From Candidatus Auribacterota bacterium (GTDB lineage Bacteria > Auribacterota > JAFGBW01): DNA of 13,681 nucleotides. The notes below the pieces were generated by a model, which was not told the DNA's origin, searched no databases, and was given only the letters and a program-made list of their open reading frames with translations. Positions 5,749-13,681 of this stretch are shown in pieces (position 1 is the stretch's first letter; each line of letters starts with the position of its first letter). The stretch spans positions 1 through 13,681 of the forward strand of contig JAFGBW010000102.1 of the NCBI GenBank assembly GCA_016932965.1. Direction: 5' to 3'. Made by a program: the position numbers and the translations under genes.

Positions 5749-5873
5749 AGGCGTACTTTCACTCCATCCTAGTTGAACCTAGTTTAAAACATCATGACTG
5801 ACATAAACATATTCCCTTGAAGAAATGGCATGATAAAAACATGAATCACCATAAGAAAGGACAAAATCAAAAC

Positions 5874-6389
5874 ATGGAAAAAACAGAAAAAATTGAAGTG
5901 ATTGAAGGAGACATCACTTCATGCAAAACAGACGCCATCGTCAATGCAGCCAATTCCACTCTCTTAGGCGGAGGAGGGGTAGACGGGGCTATTCACAAAT
6001 CAGCCGGTCCCAAACTCCTTGAAGAATGCAGAACACTTCAAGGATGCATGACCGGTGAGGCTAAAATAACCAAAGGCTACAATCTTCCTGCCAAATGGGT
6101 GATTCACACAGTAGGCCCTGTCTGGCATGGAGGCACCCATGGGGAACCTGAGCTACTGGCAAACTGTTATAAAAATGCCCTGATTCTGGCTGAAAAATAT
6201 GGCATAAACAGCATCGCTTTCCCTGCTATCAGCACAGGGGTTTATGCTTATCCCCTGGAAAAAGCCACCCGAATTGCCGTGAATGAAGTCAAACGTTTTT
6301 TAACTGAGCATGAGTTGCCCAAAAAAGTAATTTTTGTATGTTTCGGAAAAGCAGCTTATCATGTTTATAAGGACTTGGCTGAAAAATGA
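5874..6389 (+). CDS. Macro-domain protein, probable O-acetyl-ADP-ribose deacetylase / ADP-ribosyl hydrolase (YmdB/MacroD type)
   Basis: This is a single macro domain of 171 residues that fills the whole protein, close to the 177 of E. coli YmdB. Motifs are IEGDIT (10-15), the ADP-ribose pocket VNAAN (23-27), [15 protein letters not shown] (32-46), a glycine-rich stretch around [10 protein letters not shown] (78-87), and the phosphate loop [10 protein letters not shown] (118-127). Enzymes of this class remove ADP-ribose from acetyl groups or from acidic side chains; the NAAN and GGVDGAIH residues point to an active MacroD-like hydrolase. The frame can be extended to a TTG at 5817 or an ATG at 5841, but family alignment favours 5874, which has AAAGGA upstream at a long spacing (12 nt). 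Its stop codon overlaps the start of the next gene (ATGA), so it heads a coupled three-gene unit with the tandem FtsH. Confidence 0.9.
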
Positions 6390-7285
6390 TCCTATTTAAC
6401 GAAAAACGCATAGGCGGAAAAACCGGGAAGACCAAAACGGCTTTTTCATTACCTAAGAGAATCCATATGATAAAAAAACAGGGTTCTGTTAAAATATTTT
6501 ATTCTCTCAGCATAGCCGCTCTTCTTGCCGGAACGGGCATTTTTCTTTTTTTTCTCGGAAAAACAGACCTGTCCCCATCCTATCAGAGAAAATCCCTTTC
6601 TCACTCTTTGGAAACCTTATGCAATGATGAATACAGCTTACCTGTCACAGTCCATATGCAAGGGGATACGGTATGGATAGAAACTTGGATAGATGCACTC
6701 CGTACAGCTGACGATAAATCCTACCAGGAAGACGCGCTGATCCGGATGAAAATAATTTTGAAATCCCTTGATCGCATTGTGCTCAGCATCGATTCCCCTC
6801 CCAAAACCTATATCATCTGCATGAAGGAAACCCGGTCTCTCAAATATGCCCTGATCATGGGAATAATAAAAGACATGATTCAATTTCAGTACGGATATCT
6901 TCCGTATGCGGAATATTCCAGAAGAAGAGTGGATGAGAATCATAGCGGCTCCCCCCCTCATCCTTTTGAGTTAACCTTAGAAAATTTCCTGTCTAAACTC
7001 ATCGAACGGGAAATACTTCAGGTATTTGAACAACTGCATGATTATTTCGAAATGAAAAATTTCAAAATGGATTATTCTTTATCGAAATCAGAATTCACGA
7101 TAGATTATACGATCCGTCCCTTAAAAAAAACAACCCCCCTTTTGGTGTTCAATCAAATAAAAAACAGGGTGAAGGAAACCCTCATAAACAAATATGATCT
7201 GAAGGAACAATATTCGGTCAGATTCATTGACCGTTTTGAACAAATGGAAAAAATTTTTTCCTTAACAGAACTGGGGACAGAATGA
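6386..7285 (+). CDS. Unrecognised single-span membrane protein coupled to the tandem FtsH gene
   Basis: I do not recognise a family. From the ATG at 6386 the protein has 299 residues: a basic N-terminal stretch, one hydrophobic segment (about 38-58, [20 protein letters not shown]), then roughly 240 soluble residues without a clear motif, rich in charged and aromatic residues. The topology looks N-in with the large domain outside the cytoplasm (inference by the positive-inside rule). An internal ATG at 6467, preceded by AAGAGA 6 nt upstream, would give a shorter protein (272 residues) starting just before the membrane segment and is a serious alternative. The 4-nt overlaps with both the macro-domain gene and the tandem FtsH gene imply translational coupling. 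Because the FtsH-like protein lacks a real periplasmic domain, this protein may be its membrane partner or adaptor. Confidence 0.72.
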
Positions 7286-10278
7286 ATAAAATCAAACTGT
7301 ATTTTAGAATTTACTGGCAGACCATCCTTTTGCTTACCTTTGGCGCCTTTCTGATTTTTACCTTCCTATACATTTTGGCAGTAGGGATCCAGGCATTCAG
7401 GGACACGGAATCTTTCTACAGAAAAATGACTCTTTCGGGAATGGGGTTTCAGCTGTGCATCGCTCTTTTTAATGCCATTGTTTTTTCACTTATTTCATCG
7501 GGTTTTCATTACTGGCTTTATATGGGGGGAGGGCTTTCCAAACTGGGACGAAAAAAAGTTAAACCGGAAAAAGTCAACGTCAAATGGGCAGACATCATCG
7601 GTATGGATTCTGTAAAAAAAGACGTTTTCGAAGTCATCCGGTTGATCAGGGACAGAACAGCAGTCCAGAAGGCCGGCGGCAGGATCATCAAAGGGGTCTT
7701 GATGATGGGCCCTCCTGGAGTAGGAAAAACATACCTTGCCAAGGCCATTGCCACGGAAACAGGGCTACCCTTTTTATCCGCTGTAGGCAGTGAATTTGTC
7801 GGAATTTTTGTAGGAATGGGTGCTGCCAGGATGAAAAGTCTCTTTCAAGAAGCGCGTTCCATGGCTGAATTGCATGGCGGATGTATTTTATTCATAGATG
7901 AGATTGATGTCATTGCACAGCCAAGAAGGACCGATATGGGTTTTAGCGGACAGCATGATCATAACGCCACCGTGAATCAGCTGTTGACTGAAATGGACGG
8001 ACTGGTGCAAAAACAGGACAATATCGTCATTTTAGCTGCGACAAATTTCCATGAATCCGAATTGGACCCGGCTCTGATGCGGGCAGGAAGATTCGACCGT
8101 AAAATCCATATTGCTTTACCCGGCATGAAGGAAAGAAAAGACCTCTTAAAATATTATTTAGGTAAAATACAATATAACCAGGAATCGACGGATATCGACA
8201 AACTGGCCAGGCTGCTTGTCGGTAAGAGTCCGGCTGATATTGCCAATCTGGTTCGTGAGGCGTCATTGATTGCCATTCGTAAAAATAAAATGAAACCGGA
8301 TGGAACTGAATTCAACGAGGCTCATGAACGGATTTCTCTCGGCGACAGGCTGGAAATCACCCTTTCCGAAAAAGATAAACAGATATCAGCCTATCATGAG
8401 GCAGGTAAGGCAATCATCACTTATCTCTTGGTGCCGACCCAGGATGTCTTCAAAGCCAGTATCATTCCCAGAAAAGCATCCGGAAAAGGCGTGACCTGGC
8501 TCATGGAAAAAGAAGAACGATTTCTTCTCGATAAGGAGGAACTTCTGGGTTACATCAAGATCAATCTGGCCGGCTTCACCGCTGAAAAAATCCGGTTCGG
8601 AGTCACTTCAACGGCAGTGGAAAGCGACCTGAAAAATGTCAATGAACTGAGCGATCTCATGGTCCTGTATCTTGGCATGGGAACTTCTGGCGTCCTGGGG
8701 ATTTCCCCGCAAGGTCAGGCTTCAGAAAAAGATAAAGAAGTTTTGATCAGCAGATGTCTCGAGGAAGTGAATGAAATCTTAAGAAAAGAAAGACCGCTTC
8801 TGGATGAAATGGCAGAATCACTTCTCACACACTCAGAACTGGACTATGATTCCATGGAGTTTTTGTTTAAGAAACACGGTAAAACACGGCTGACCTATAC
8901 TGTAAAAACAGGGCAAAGGGACAAAAAAGAAGGGATGATCGGCTGGGACCAGATCATCGGCATGGAAGAGACGAAAGAAGAAGCGAAAGAAGTGGTTCAG
9001 TTAATGCGGGACCGAGTGATCTTAAAAAAGTCCGGCGGAAATTTTATCAAGGGTCTTCTGTTATTCGGTCCGCCAGGATGCGGAAAAACCTATCTTGCGT
9101 CCGCCATTGCCAATGAAGCGGGTGTGCCTCTCATCAGCCGTTCCGGTTCGGAATTTGTCGAAATGTTTGTTGGAGTCGGTGCAAGCAGAATCAGGAATTT
9201 GTTCCAGGAGGCGAGAGAAAAGGCCCTGTCAGAAAACGGCTGTATTATTTTCATAGATGAAATAGACGCTGTCGCTGCCAAACGCTCGGAAGATTTGGGG
9301 TTCGGCGGGACTTCTGAACGCAATTCCACCGTCAATCAACTGCTGGTGGAAATGGACGGGATAAAAGAAAAAAGCAATGAATACAATATCATCGTGATCG
9401 GCGCTACCAACATGGACGAACAATTTTTGGATCCTGCTTTACTACGGCCGGGAAGGTTTGACAGAAAAATATACGTCGATCTTCCCACATGGGAAGACAG
9501 AAAAAAACTCTTTGCTTTTTACTTAAAAGGACATCCCTGCAACACCCAGGAGGTTGACCCCGAAAAATTTGCCGGTATCACAGCCGGGTGGTCCCCGGCA
9601 GAAATATCCAACCTCATCCGGGAGGCTTCTCTCCTGGCTGCCAGGAAGAAAAAAGAACAGTTCGGCATTGTAGAAATTGAGGAGGCCCGCGAGCGATTTG
9701 AACTGGGCCTAAAAAGAAAAATTCAGGTCAGCGATGATGAAAAAAGAGCCACAGCTATACATGAAACCGGACACTGCATGGCCACGTATTTTTTCGAGCC
9801 GAACAATCCTCCCTTTAAGCTTTCCATTGTACCGCGCAGAAAAACTCTGGGGGTTTCCTGGGAGAGCCGTAAAGGGGATCAAACCGGCGGGGATAGAAAT
9901 GAACTCTTAGCCAGCATTAAAGTCTCACTGGCAGGCTATGCCGCTGAAAAATTAAAATGTAAGGCTACCAGTGCCGGCGTGGACAGCGATTTTTCTAACG
10001 CCATCAACCTCGCGAACAACATGGTCTGGAGGTGGGGAATGGGAAAAAGCGGACAAATCGGGAATTTCCATTCTCTGATGAAAAATAATCCTCATCTGAT
10101 TTCCGATGAAACCAAACAGAAGCTCGACAGGGAAACACAGGACATCCTGCAGGAATGCCTGAAGGATGTGGAAGACATGCTCAAGCGTGAATCCGTGCTC
10201 ATGGACCGTCTGGTGGAGGAACTGCTTAAAAAAGAAGAGCTCAATTACCGCGAACTCGAACAGATATTCAAACAGTGA
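7282..10278 (+). CDS. Tandem FtsH-like protein: two AAA+/M41 metalloprotease modules on one chain, the first with a degenerate zinc site
   Basis: This is a 998-residue membrane-anchored protein. Two helices (about 12-37 and 56-80) flank a loop of under 20 residues. Module 1 has Walker A GPPGVGKT (143-150), pore-loop FVG (176-178), Walker B CILFIDEID (201-209), and SRH with arginine fingers R270/R273. Its peptidase motif is HEAGK (372-376) and the third ligand position is D449. After a short linker, module 2 repeats everything with an offset of about 453-455 residues: GPPGCGKT (596-603), FVG (629-631), CIIFIDEID (654-662), R725/R728, intact HETGH (827-831) and D903. Ordinary FtsH is a single module of about 610-650 residues and forms hexamers, so a tandem chain could form a trimer of pairs. 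Module 2 is predicted to be an active ATP-dependent zinc protease and module 1 an ATPase with a dead protease. GGGGA lies 4 nt before the ATG, which overlaps the upstream stop codon. Confidence 0.93.
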   Translation: MNKIKLYFRIYWQTILLLTFGAFLIFTFLYILAVGIQAFRDTESFYRKMTLSGMGFQLCIALFNAIVFSLISSGFHYWLYMGGGLSKLGRKKVKPEKVNVKWADIIGMDSVKKDVFEVIRLIRDRTAVQKAGGRIIKGVLMMGPPGVGKTYLAKAIATETGLPFLSAVGSEFVGIFVGMGAARMKSLFQEARSMAELHGGCILFIDEIDVIAQPRRTDMGFSGQHDHNATVNQLLTEMDGLVQKQDNIVILAATNFHESELDPALMRAGRFDRKIHIALPGMKERKDLLKYYLGKIQYNQESTDIDKLARLLVGKSPADIANLVREASLIAIRKNKMKPDGTEFNEAHERISLGDRLEITLSEKDKQISAYHEAGKAIITYLLVPTQDVFKASIIPRKASGKGVTWLMEKEERFLLDKEELLGYIKINLAGFTAEKIRFGVTSTAVESDLKNVNELSDLMVLYLGMGTSGVLGISPQGQASEKDKEVLISRCLEEVNEILRKERPLLDEMAESLLTHSELDYDSMEFLFKKHGKTRLTYTVKTGQRDKKEGMIGWDQIIGMEETKEEAKEVVQLMRDRVILKKSGGNFIKGLLLFGPPGCGKTYLASAIANEAGVPLISRSGSEFVEMFVGVGASRIRNLFQEAREKALSENGCIIFIDEIDAVAAKRSEDLGFGGTSERNSTVNQLLVEMDGIKEKSNEYNIIVIGATNMDEQFLDPALLRPGRFDRKIYVDLPTWEDRKKLFAFYLKGHPCNTQEVDPEKFAGITAGWSPAEISNLIREASLLAARKKKEQFGIVEIEEARERFELGLKRKIQVSDDEKRATAIHETGHCMATYFFEPNNPPFKLSIVPRRKTLGVSWESRKGDQTGGDRNELLASIKVSLAGYAAEKLKCKATSAGVDSDFSNAINLANNMVWRWGMGKSGQIGNFHSLMKNNPHLISDETKQKLDRETQDILQECLKDVEDMLKRESVLMDRLVEELLKKEELNYRELEQIFKQ

Positions 10279-10296
10279 TCCTCACATATGCAATCA

Positions 10297-12357
10297 TCAT
10301 AGCAGATTGTATTCTCTGATTTTTGCCTTTAATGTGTTCCTGTTTATCCCCAGTATGGAAGCAGTCCTGGATTTATTGTAATTCGTCTGGACCAATAATT
10401 TTTCGATAAGGATTTTCTCAATCCTGCCTATGACACCCGAATAGATATCCGAGTGACTGTATCGTTTACTTTCAATGGAAATCCACTTTTCAATATCGAA
10501 TTTCTCATGATCATGTCCGGTTTCATGATGCAGCATCTGGTCAGGCAGCACAGACTTGTCAATCACATCTTTTCTGCTTAAAACAACACCCTTTTCGATG
10601 ATATTCTCAAGTTCCCTGATATTCCCAGGCCAGTTGTAATTCAACAAAATATTTTTGATTTTAGGATCAAGCCCGGTCACATTCTTGTGATAAAGTGCGT
10701 TGTATTTCTTAATGAAATAATCCACTAAAAGCATGATATCATCTTTTCTTTCTCTTAACGGCGGCAATCTCAGGGTGATGACATTCAGTCTGAAAAATAA
10801 ATCGCTCCTGAATTTATTTTCATGCACCATTTTTTCAAGATTTTTATTCGTGGCTGTAATGATTCTTATGTCTATTTTAACCGTTTCATCAGACCCTAAC
10901 GGTTCTATCTCCTTTTCTTGTATGGCTCGAAGAATCTTTGCCTGCAAATGAACAGGCATATCGCCTATTTCATCAAGGAAAAGGGTCCCGCCGCTTGCGA
11001 GCTCGAACTTGCCGGTCCTGTTTGAAACGGCGCTGGTAAAGGCCCCTTTTTTATATCCAAATAATTCGGATTCCAGAAGATTTTCCGGTATAGCCGCGCA
11101 ATTCAAGCTGACAAACCTCTTGTCCCTTCTGTCGCTTAAAAAATGCAACACCTTTGCAATAAGCTCCTTACCTGTTCCTGTCTCTCCAGTTATTAAAACA
11201 GATGCGGGCGTATTCGCTATGGTTTTTACCTGTTCAATGACCTTCCTCAAATTCTCGTTTCTTCCAATGATGTTTCTGAAACTATACCCGGTTTTCAGCT
11301 CCTCACGGAGTTCAAGATTTTCTGTTATCAGACGCCGGGTTTCCTCTTCCTGTAACTGATGATTTCTGACCCTGTAGGATATCATGGATGTGAGTAACGT
11401 CATGGTTTTTGTCACGTCTTCAAAATACCTGTCACTCTCGAATCTCGATTCGATGGCCAGGACTCCGATCACATCATGATCAATTTTTATAGGCGAGGCG
11501 ATGAATGAAACACGTCCTAATCCGGCTCTTTTCAATTTCATCTTGTTCAGAAATCTCGGTTCTTTGGAAACATCCCTGATGGAAGTGGTTTTGCCGCTCT
11601 CAACAGTTCCTCCTATGATCCCTTCTCCGATTTTATAGATGCCCTTTTTCATTGCCTCATCACTTATCCGGTATCCGCAGTTGATGTTGAGGGAACCCGG
11701 ATCATCCTTGTCAAATAAGACGAGCATACCTCTGATGATGAGCATCTTATTTTTCAGGACTTCCATGATCTGATTGAAGACGGAGTTGAGATCATTTTCC
11801 TTTTCCAGGATATCGAACGCGGATATCAAAACATCCTGTGTATTCACTTTGGACTCCAAACTTTCCTGGGTCTTCTCTCTCAATATGATTTGGGCTGATA
11901 ATTCAGCAACCATGGTCAGAAGTTCAAGATGGTCTTCTGAAAAAGCGTTCACCATGGAACTGTCGACGCTGATGACTCCAATCAGCATGGCATCTGTTTT
12001 TATGGGCACGGCTAGTTCAGACATCAGATCTTTTCTGATGCTCACATAACGGGGTTCTTTTCTTATATCATTCAACAGTTTGGGGATACCGGTTTTAGCC
12101 ACCCATCCCGTCACTCCTTCGCCGATTTTAAGTTTGGTAGTGTCCGCAACGTTAGGACGGATTCCCTTGTAGGCTAAAATATCCAGCACGGCCTTTTCGT
12201 GGTCGATGAGCATGACCGTACCGGTTGTGGCATTGGTGAGACCGATGCAGCGCTCAAGGATGATTTCCAACAGTTCCCTGGTCGTATGGGCTTTGTTCAT
12301 CTCCACGGCGATATAATGAACCAATTTCAGATTATTTATTTTTTTCTGTATATCCAT
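10297..12357 (-). CDS. Sigma-54-dependent transcriptional activator, GAF-GAF-AAA+-Fis (FhlA-like architecture)
   Basis: This enhancer-binding protein has 686 residues and remodels sigma-54 RNA polymerase. Two GAF domains occupy about 10-160 and 175-330 and should sense a small ligand. A short coiled linker follows (about 335-357), then the AAA+ domain with Walker A GETGTGKE (391-398), the sigma-54 contact loop GAFTSA (438-443, usually GAFTGA), Walker B TLFLDEIGDM (458-467), and RLPPLRERKDD (530-540). The C-terminal Fis-type helix-turn-helix is at about 643-684. No receiver domain is seen, so control is by ligand rather than phosphorylation. The ATG at 12357 is chosen because AAGGA lies exactly 6 nt upstream; a TTG at 12387 and ATG at 12363 are in frame but worse placed. 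It ends 18 bp from the tandem FtsH stop (convergent) and is divergent from glnN, the likeliest target. Confidence 0.95.
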   Translation of the reverse strand: MDIQKKINNLKLVHYIAVEMNKAHTTRELLEIILERCIGLTNATTGTVMLIDHEKAVLDILAYKGIRPNVADTTKLKIGEGVTGWVAKTGIPKLLNDIRKEPRYVSIRKDLMSELAVPIKTDAMLIGVISVDSSMVNAFSEDHLELLTMVAELSAQIILREKTQESLESKVNTQDVLISAFDILEKENDLNSVFNQIMEVLKNKMLIIRGMLVLFDKDDPGSLNINCGYRISDEAMKKGIYKIGEGIIGGTVESGKTTSIRDVSKEPRFLNKMKLKRAGLGRVSFIASPIKIDHDVIGVLAIESRFESDRYFEDVTKTMTLLTSMISYRVRNHQLQEEETRRLITENLELREELKTGYSFRNIIGRNENLRKVIEQVKTIANTPASVLITGETGTGKELIAKVLHFLSDRRDKRFVSLNCAAIPENLLESELFGYKKGAFTSAVSNRTGKFELASGGTLFLDEIGDMPVHLQAKILRAIQEKEIEPLGSDETVKIDIRIITATNKNLEKMVHENKFRSDLFFRLNVITLRLPPLRERKDDIMLLVDYFIKKYNALYHKNVTGLDPKIKNILLNYNWPGNIRELENIIEKGVVLSRKDVIDKSVLPDQMLHHETGHDHEKFDIEKWISIESKRYSHSDIYSGVIGRIEKILIEKLLVQTNYNKSRTASILGINRNTLKAKIREYNLL

Positions 12358-12363
12358 GAACAT

Positions 12364-12368
12364 TCCTT
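12364..12368 (-). promoter_or_regulatory. Shine-Dalgarno deciding the start of the sigma-54 activator
   Basis: On the minus strand AAGGA is followed by 6 nt and then the ATG at 12357. It overlaps the alternative ATG at 12363, which would leave no spacing, so the 12357 start is preferred. Confidence 0.65.
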
Positions 12369-12445
12369 CAAATCCATTCAGTCGCAATCGTATCCATAAA
12401 AGGAATATGTCCTATTTATCGCAAATGATCCATATTCAAAATGAT

Positions 12446-12668: not shown

Positions 12669-12756
12669 AATCGTCTCAAAAATAGAATCCATTTCCCGAC
12701 TAGGGAGAATGGTTGTCTATTCATAAAAAAACAACTCTCAATAAGGGTGCATGAAC

Positions 12757-13681
12757 ATGAAAAAAGAAAAGAATCCGGCTAAAATTTTCGGGATGAATGT
12801 ATTCAATGATAAAGTGATGAAGGAACTTCTGCCCAAGACAACATACAAGGAATTCAAAAAAACCATTGTGGAAGGCCGATCGCTTTCATTAGAAGTGGCC
12901 AATGTGATTGCCAATGCCATGAAAGATTGGGCTATCAATAAAGGAGCAACCCATTACACTCACTGGTTTCAGCCTTTAACTGGATCAACAGCAGAGAAAC
13001 ATGATTCTTTCATCTCCCCGATGGAAGATGGAAGCGTTACCCTCGAATTTTCCGGAAAACAACTGATCAAAGGGGAACCGGATGCCTCTTCATTTCCTTC
13101 CGGTGGCTTACGCGCCACTTTTGAAGCTAGAGGATATACGGCATGGGACCCTACCTCTCCTGCTTTTCTAAAAGAAAATGCAGAAGGAGACGTGACCCTT
13201 TGTATTCCAACCGCCTTTTATTCCTATACAGGTGTGGCTCTTGATAAAAAAATCCCCGTACTGAGATCCATGGATGCTGTTTCAAAACAAGCCTTGAGGA
13301 TTCTAAGGGCTTTTGGAAACACAACAGCAAAAAAAGTCGTATCCACTCTGGGTCCTGAACAGGAATATTTCTTAATCGACAAAAATTTATATCTTAAAAG
13401 GCTTGATTTAATGCTTTGCGGCAGAACCTTATACGGTGCCCCATCTCCCAAAGGCCAGGAACTGGAAGACCAGTATTTCGGATCCATAAAAGACAGGATT
13501 TCTGCATTCATGACAGATTTGGATATGGAACTCTGGAAAATGAGCATCACTTCCAAAACCCGACACAATGAGGTGGCCCCTGCCCAGTATGAAATGGCTC
13601 CTGTATTTGAAAGTCTCAATATTGCAGTGGATCATAATCAACTAGCAATGGAAACCATGCAAAAGGTGGCACTGCGTCACG
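12757..13681 (+). CDS. glnN: Glutamine synthetase type III, GlnN (partial, C-terminus off the right edge)
   Basis: The first 308 residues of a GSIII are present; the family is usually about 700-730 residues long and dodecameric. The enzyme makes glutamine from glutamate, ammonia and ATP in the cytoplasm. Diagnostic blocks are [17 protein letters not shown] (11-27), [21 protein letters not shown] (65-85), [20 protein letters not shown] (98-117), [17 protein letters not shown] (121-137), the metal-ligand motif [10 protein letters not shown] (199-208) and [14 protein letters not shown] (269-282). The frame stays open to the window edge. Two in-frame ATGs lie 6 nt apart (12751 and 12757). AAGGG at 12743-12747 is 3 nt from the first and 9 nt from the second, which is therefore preferred. 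A sigma-54 promoter about 90 bp upstream suggests control by nitrogen or by the neighbouring GAF-type activator. Confidence 0.95.

Follow-up and report, generated by a model that had tools for sequence, protein, structure and literature searches.

A single reading frame encodes two FtsH modules

The DNA analysed here, referred to as the window, is a 13,681 nucleotide stretch of contig JAFGBW010000102.1 from a Candidatus Auribacterota bacterium. Positions 7282-10278 (+ strand) form an uninterrupted reading frame for a protein of 998 amino acids, in which two FtsH-type modules, each with an AAA+ ATPase and an M41 peptidase domain, follow each other on one chain. Genes of this architecture will be called tandems, and their proximal and distal modules T1 and T2. 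The features of the window gene are listed below (AF2, AlphaFold2).

7282-10278, + strand: tandem FtsH gene, 998 amino acids; two transmembrane (TM) helices, AAA, M41 with broken zinc site, linker, AAA, M41 (reading frame calling, Pfam; architecture common to eight other genomes)
7324-7380, + strand: membrane helix 1, residues 15-33 (hydropathy; helix in the AF2 model)
7438-7494, + strand: membrane helix 2, residues 53-71 (hydropathy)
7576-8331, + strand: T1 AAA+ domain, residues 99-350 (Pfam, alignment, structure match)
7708-7731, + strand: T1 Walker A GPPGVGKT, residues 143-150, K149 (motif)
7801-7824, + strand: T1 pore loop GIFVGMGA, variable among T1 modules (motif)
7894-7908, + strand: T1 Walker B IDEID, residues 205-209, E207 (motif)
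8074-8100, + strand: T1 Arg-finger block LMRAGRFDR, R267 and R270 (motif)
8353-8901, + strand: T1 M41 domain, residues 358-540, broken zinc site (Pfam, alignment)
8395-8409, + strand: T1 zinc motif HEAGK, residues 372-376, His to Lys at 376 (motif)
8872-8943, + strand: inter-module linker, about residues 531-554 (alignment; low confidence in the AF2 model)
8935-9699, + strand: T2 AAA+ domain, residues 552-806 (Pfam, alignment, structure match)
9067-9090, + strand: T2 Walker A GPPGCGKT, residues 596-603 (motif)
9160-9183, + strand: T2 pore loop EMFVGVGA (motif)
9253-9267, + strand: T2 Walker B IDEID, residues 658-662 (motif)
9439-9465, + strand: T2 Arg-finger block LLRPGRFDR, R722 and R725 (motif)
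9724-10266, + strand: T2 M41 domain, residues 815-995, intact (Pfam, alignment)
9760-9774, + strand: T2 zinc motif HETGH, residues 827-831, third ligand D903 (motif)

Pfam recognized AAA (E 2e-77 for the whole protein) and Peptidase_M41 (E 7.6e-64) twice each, and the protein scored 809 bits with TIGR01241 (cut-off 600), this score being the sum over two stretches. T1 and T2 are 44.7% identical over 447 aligned positions. When the motifs of the two modules were paired, Walker A (143-150 and 596-603) and Walker B (205-209 and 658-662) were found to be offset by 453 residues, the Arg-finger blocks (265-273 and 720-728) and the HExGx motifs (372-376 and 827-831) by 455, and the third zinc ligands (D449 and D903) by 454. 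This is the nearly constant offset of 453-455 given in the original prediction, which had been made from the DNA letters alone. Walker A, Walker B and the Arg fingers, as expected of AAA+ proteins, are present in both modules. Taken alone, each module matched solved chains of the FtsH family, T2 matching 3kds (Z 37.4) and T1 AFG3L2 (6nyy, Z 32.1).

Like bacterial FtsH (M41, TIGR01241; E. coli, T. maritima), the window protein has N-terminal membrane helices followed by AAA+ and then M41. Unlike bacterial FtsH, it has two modules per chain instead of one, one of them with a dead protease (see below), and it lacks the periplasmic domain that canonical bacterial FtsH carries between the helices, the interhelix loop being only about 20 amino acids long. 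Segments of membrane-grade hydrophobicity were confined to residues 15-33 and 53-71, in agreement with the predicted restriction of the membrane helices to the N-terminus. The linker is 20-25 amino acids long in the eight tandems in which it was measured, and its middle part in the window protein (residues 537-551) has low confidence in the AF2 model.

The zinc site of T1 is broken

In T2 the zinc ligands of an M41 protease (HEXXH plus Asp) are present as HETGH and D903, and from its motifs this module is read as a complete ATPase-protease. The corresponding codons of T1 are CAT GAG GCA GGT AAG (HEAGK), i.e. the second zinc-binding His is replaced by Lys. Because AAG is two substitutions away from either His codon, a single base error does not explain the replacement. 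Of the claim that the gene encodes two complete FtsH modules, the presence of two AAA+/M41 modules therefore stood, whereas a full set of M41 motifs was found only once. The ATPase motifs of T1 are kept (Walker A K149, Walker B E207, Arg fingers R267 and R270), and judged from these motifs T1 is very probably a protease-dead ATPase. The same combination, intact AAA+ motifs and a mutated HEXXH, characterizes the plant FtsHi pseudo-proteases and the Ycf2-FtsHi motor (PMC8197885), but FtsHi proteins are separate components of an import motor, whereas the pseudo-protease of the tandem is fused to its active partner.

Of the nine tandems found in this work (see below), six carry HEAGH as the T1 zinc motif, two (L007 and L008) carry YEAGH, and the window protein carries HEAGK. 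HExGH and the Asp ligand are present in T2 of all nine. According to the tree, two independent events destroyed the zinc site of T1, one giving HEAGK and the other YEAGH. The latter is a natural version of H423Y, a laboratory mutant of T. maritima FtsH that is deficient in protease activity and zinc binding (PMC8943139), since the same change of the first His to Tyr abolishes zinc binding there.

Walker A, Walker B and the Arg fingers are kept in both modules across the tandems, but the AAA domains are not equally conserved, mean pairwise identity being 69% for T2 and 59% for T1; conservation of the M41 domains is alike (51% in T2, 53% in T1). All nine T2 modules share the pore loop EM[FY]VGVGA, whereas just four of the nine T1 modules have the [FY]VG core. 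Three single-module proteins (L009, L011 and L026) share with T1 the Arg-finger block MRAGRFDR and a pore loop with G for E; they did not group with T1 in larger trees.

Occurrence of the fusion

A first scan revealed a reading frame of about 1010 amino acids on three Omnitrophota contigs, and about twenty single-module relatives of about 555 amino acids. These short FtsH proteins (about 555-570 amino acids, e.g. L009, L028 and L065) form a family that extends across Omnitrophota and into related phyla. They have no periplasmic domain and resemble the tandem in their N-terminus and, in nearly all cases, in having a gene for a two-domain envelope lipoprotein adjacent to theirs. Unlike the tandem, they have one module, and HExGH is intact in all that were tabulated. 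In a scan of 384 Omnitrophota genomes (cut-off for the short family E ≤ 1e-100) the short family was found in 291 and a tandem in eight (G435, G323, G262, G277, G240, G059, G060 and G061), the reading frame in G323 being cut by the contig end. The window genome is the ninth carrier, and the sole one among 44 genomes of its own phylum. The original prediction had named the absence of the fusion from every other genome as fatal to it; eight further carriers are now known. No additional tandem was detected in a broad set of 384 genomes of other bacteria, the scoring of which was limited to the two top candidates in each genome, at a strict cut-off, so that distant tandems of canonical type may have been missed. 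Long frames in G448 and G710 were rejected as tandems, each consisting of one module with extensions.

Six of the nine tandem hosts have no other member of the short family, the sole other FtsH-type protein found in them being a canonical FtsH of about 630-680 amino acids. In the window genome, the tandem is accompanied by one short single-module FtsH (L002) and by a canonical FtsH (L003). Genome G106 carries, on the minus strand, a pair of neighbouring short ftsH genes that are nearly identical and unfused (L087, 1294-3012 and 3224-4630), an arrangement that illustrates how fusion pairs can start.

The belief that no protease of this architecture had been described was borne out by the open-access literature on FtsH together with Omnitrophota/Omnitrophica and on tandem FtsH, where we found none; the words 'tandem', 'fused' and 'two AAA' are absent from a review of FtsH evolution (PMC9020784). 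The component domains are all known. No paper describing the fusion or the short family was found in the open-access literature searched, and unpublished annotations may exist.

T1 and T2 descend from one old fusion

The main tree comprised 18 tandem modules, 26 single-module proteins and three canonical FtsH sequences. The nine T1 modules formed one clade (support 92/92) and the nine T2 modules another (99/95), with the window T2 pairing with that of G323 (98/94). Since T1 and T2 each form one clade, these observations point to one old, inherited fusion, in which two paralogous modules were joined once, before the tandem-bearing lineages diverged. The approximately unbiased (AU) test rejected the grouping of the window T1 and T2 as sisters (p 0.0003), and with it a late duplication inside the window gene; late self-duplication within L006 was likewise rejected (p 0.0001). 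Multiple fusions, suggested by an early sparse tree in which the T1 modules derived from different single genes, were dropped when the nine-tandem tree united them.

In the tree, the window tandem nests inside the Omnitrophota tandems. GlnA encoded in the window shares 73% identity with its counterpart in a genome of the same order (G001), against 56-64% with Omnitrophota, and the DXS of the window falls outside the well-supported Omnitrophota clade (100/99), although it likewise failed to group with DXS of its own order. On the basis of the GlnA identities and the position of DXS, misbinning of an Omnitrophota contig into the metagenome-assembled genome was rejected. Taking into account that the host is not a member of Omnitrophota and that the neighbouring genes fit its own lineage, the simplest reading is that the tandem gene was probably acquired horizontally from Omnitrophota by the lineage of the window.

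A conserved envelope protein gene accompanies short and tandem ftsH genes

6386-7285, + strand: partner gene, single-TM envelope protein, 299 amino acids; start may be M28, base 6467 (neighbourhood, alignment, AF2)

The stop codon of this gene overlaps the start of the tandem (ATGA at 7282). Homologues lie directly downstream of most single short ftsH genes and of the tandems L006, L088, L090 and L091, and profile comparison added homologous genes beside L007, L089 and L002 (E 1.8e-17 to 3.8e-20). The window shows the opposite order, the partner being upstream of ftsH. A lipobox-type Cys was found in all 17 aligned homologues; the window partner has Lys at this position, only the helix being kept. 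The pair of short ftsH and lipoprotein genes is widespread in Omnitrophota and appears to be undescribed. The AF2 model of the partner (predicted local distance difference test score 86.8) consists of two alpha-beta-beta-alpha-beta-beta units. Searches yielded no Pfam match, no solved relative by sequence (E ≥ 0.18) and no significant Foldseek match to the model (best E 2.3e-3, TM-score ≤ 0.24). OsmC-like and other alpha/beta matches over residues 196-284 (Z about 8) indicate no more than a widespread fold arrangement. The partner reading frame of G435 (L088, 3577-5610) encodes 677 amino acids, more than twice the usual length.

Proposed assembly of the tandem protein

The m-AAA proteases (Yta10/Yta12, AFG3L2/paraplegin) and the thylakoid FtsH complexes of types A and B are also built of two paralogous subunits, but there the subunits are separate proteins, whereas the tandem is one polypeptide with one anchor. 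The prediction of a 1:1 ratio imposed on two different, paralogous subunits by one chain with a single N-terminal anchor is supported. We favour the interpretation, with a probability of roughly 0.6, that the protein is a naturally fused FtsH hetero-dimer, three chains of which form one hexameric ring with alternating T1 and T2. The fused pair would enforce both the ratio and the order of the subunits. Such a ring would contain six ATPases and either three (window) or six (HEAGH tandems) protease sites, and would be anchored by the T1 helices alone, i.e. by six helices instead of twelve. All six ATPase sites would drive the ring. T2 would grip and cut, whereas T1 would serve anchoring, ring geometry and ATP hydrolysis, a role like that of the protease-dead subunits of heteromeric FtsH complexes. 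The lipoprotein-type neighbour probably makes up for the lack of a periplasmic domain, receiving substrates or exerting regulation at the outer face of the membrane. That the entire picture applies, with live proteases in strict alternation with dead ones, half the usual anchors and an envelope lipoprotein-type protein as a detached periplasmic domain, has in our estimate an even chance.

With no other short-family member in six of the nine hosts, the tandem probably assembles with itself. This, and the mostly 1:1 composition of known FtsH heterocomplexes, in which one protease type can be dispensable (PMC9020784), favours a trimer of tandems in one ring. Thylakoid FtsH can do without the protease activity of type B but not without the type B ATPase (PMC9020784). 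The single ring also fits the short conserved linker and the complete ATPase motifs of both modules. Several points weigh against it. The one-ring geometry is an inference, and the single-chain AF2 model (predicted TM-score 0.43) does not fix the relative placement of the modules. One ring would require the 20-25 residue linker to reach from the end of M41 to the start of the neighbouring AAA domain. Retention of HEAGH in six of the nine T1 modules limits the dead half to the window gene and L007/L008, and the role suggested for the partner was deduced from gene neighbourhood.

In type II AAA+ proteins (p97, NSF, ClpA), which likewise carry two AAA modules on each chain, these modules build stacked rings (PMC5447069), and six tandem chains might similarly form two homohexameric rings, a membrane-proximal one of T1 and a distal one of T2, with protease domains in both tiers. 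The dead T1 chamber of the window protein would then serve as a channel through which substrate reaches the T2 motor, a function that the dead T1 proteases of the window and L007/L008 would suit. However, in p97, NSF and ClpA the AAA modules are neither separated nor followed by an M41 domain, whereas stacking of the tandem would sandwich an M41 layer between two AAA rings. We know of no example of such a layer. Moreover, in the six species with an intact T1 protease the first ring would destroy the substrate before it reached T2, yet the distal T2 is the more conserved module, and for this reason stacked rings, although the chief alternative, are considered unlikely. A further explanation, that T1 is a decaying membrane anchor or spacer and T2 alone forms the working hexamer, the fusion being nearly neutral, would account for the faster evolution of the T1 AAA domain, its variable pore loops and the two losses of its protease. 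We find it rather improbable, because neutral decay would not have kept the Walker A lysine, Walker B and both Arg fingers in all T1 modules over deep divergence; the length of T1 is also kept.

The dead half of the protease sites in the window protein recalls the FtsHi proteins (PMC8197885) and would be compatible with a function mainly as unfoldase or translocase, with proteolysis secondary, as in the plant FtsHi motors; conservation of HExGH and the Asp ligand in every T2 makes this very improbable. Finally, adjacent unfused copies exist in the group (G106), and an assembly or gene-calling artefact could in principle have united two such genes. The tandem is, however, a single frame in eight independent genomes, and the window T1 and T2 are far from identical (see above); the chance of an artefact appears negligible, and an assembly join was rejected on the evidence of the eight other genomes and the two-clade phylogeny.

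It is still debated for what reason organelles have FtsH rings of mixed composition and what number of protease and ATPase sites such a ring requires. Because the covalent fusion fixes subunit ratio and order, each role could be tested by point mutation with the stoichiometry unscrambled. The tandems offer a case of natural protease loss repeated at one fixed position in bacteria, the same change that gave rise to plant FtsHi. The window protein seems to hold, on one chain, an active subunit together with its helper, two roles that elsewhere are divided between separate proteins.

Other neighbouring genes

Genes of the Band_7/SPFH (HflK) type were found beside the tandems of G435 and G240 and beside the single short ftsH gene of L022:

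L088, 8794-9792: Band_7/SPFH gene
L091, 7090-9525: Band_7/SPFH gene
L022, 4857-5855: Band_7/SPFH gene

HflK/C proteins of this class form complexes with FtsH (PMC12048511), so that an SPFH-linked FtsH assembly is plausible in some species.

In the window, a gene for a macro-domain protein (ADP-ribose hydrolase family; 5817-6389) lies directly upstream of the partner gene, overlapping it by four bases if the partner starts at 6386. Downstream of the tandem, positions 10297-12387 (minus strand) encode a GAF-GAF-sigma54 activator of the NifA type, and 12751-13680 a long-type glutamine synthetase divergent from it, of which a second copy is located on C249.

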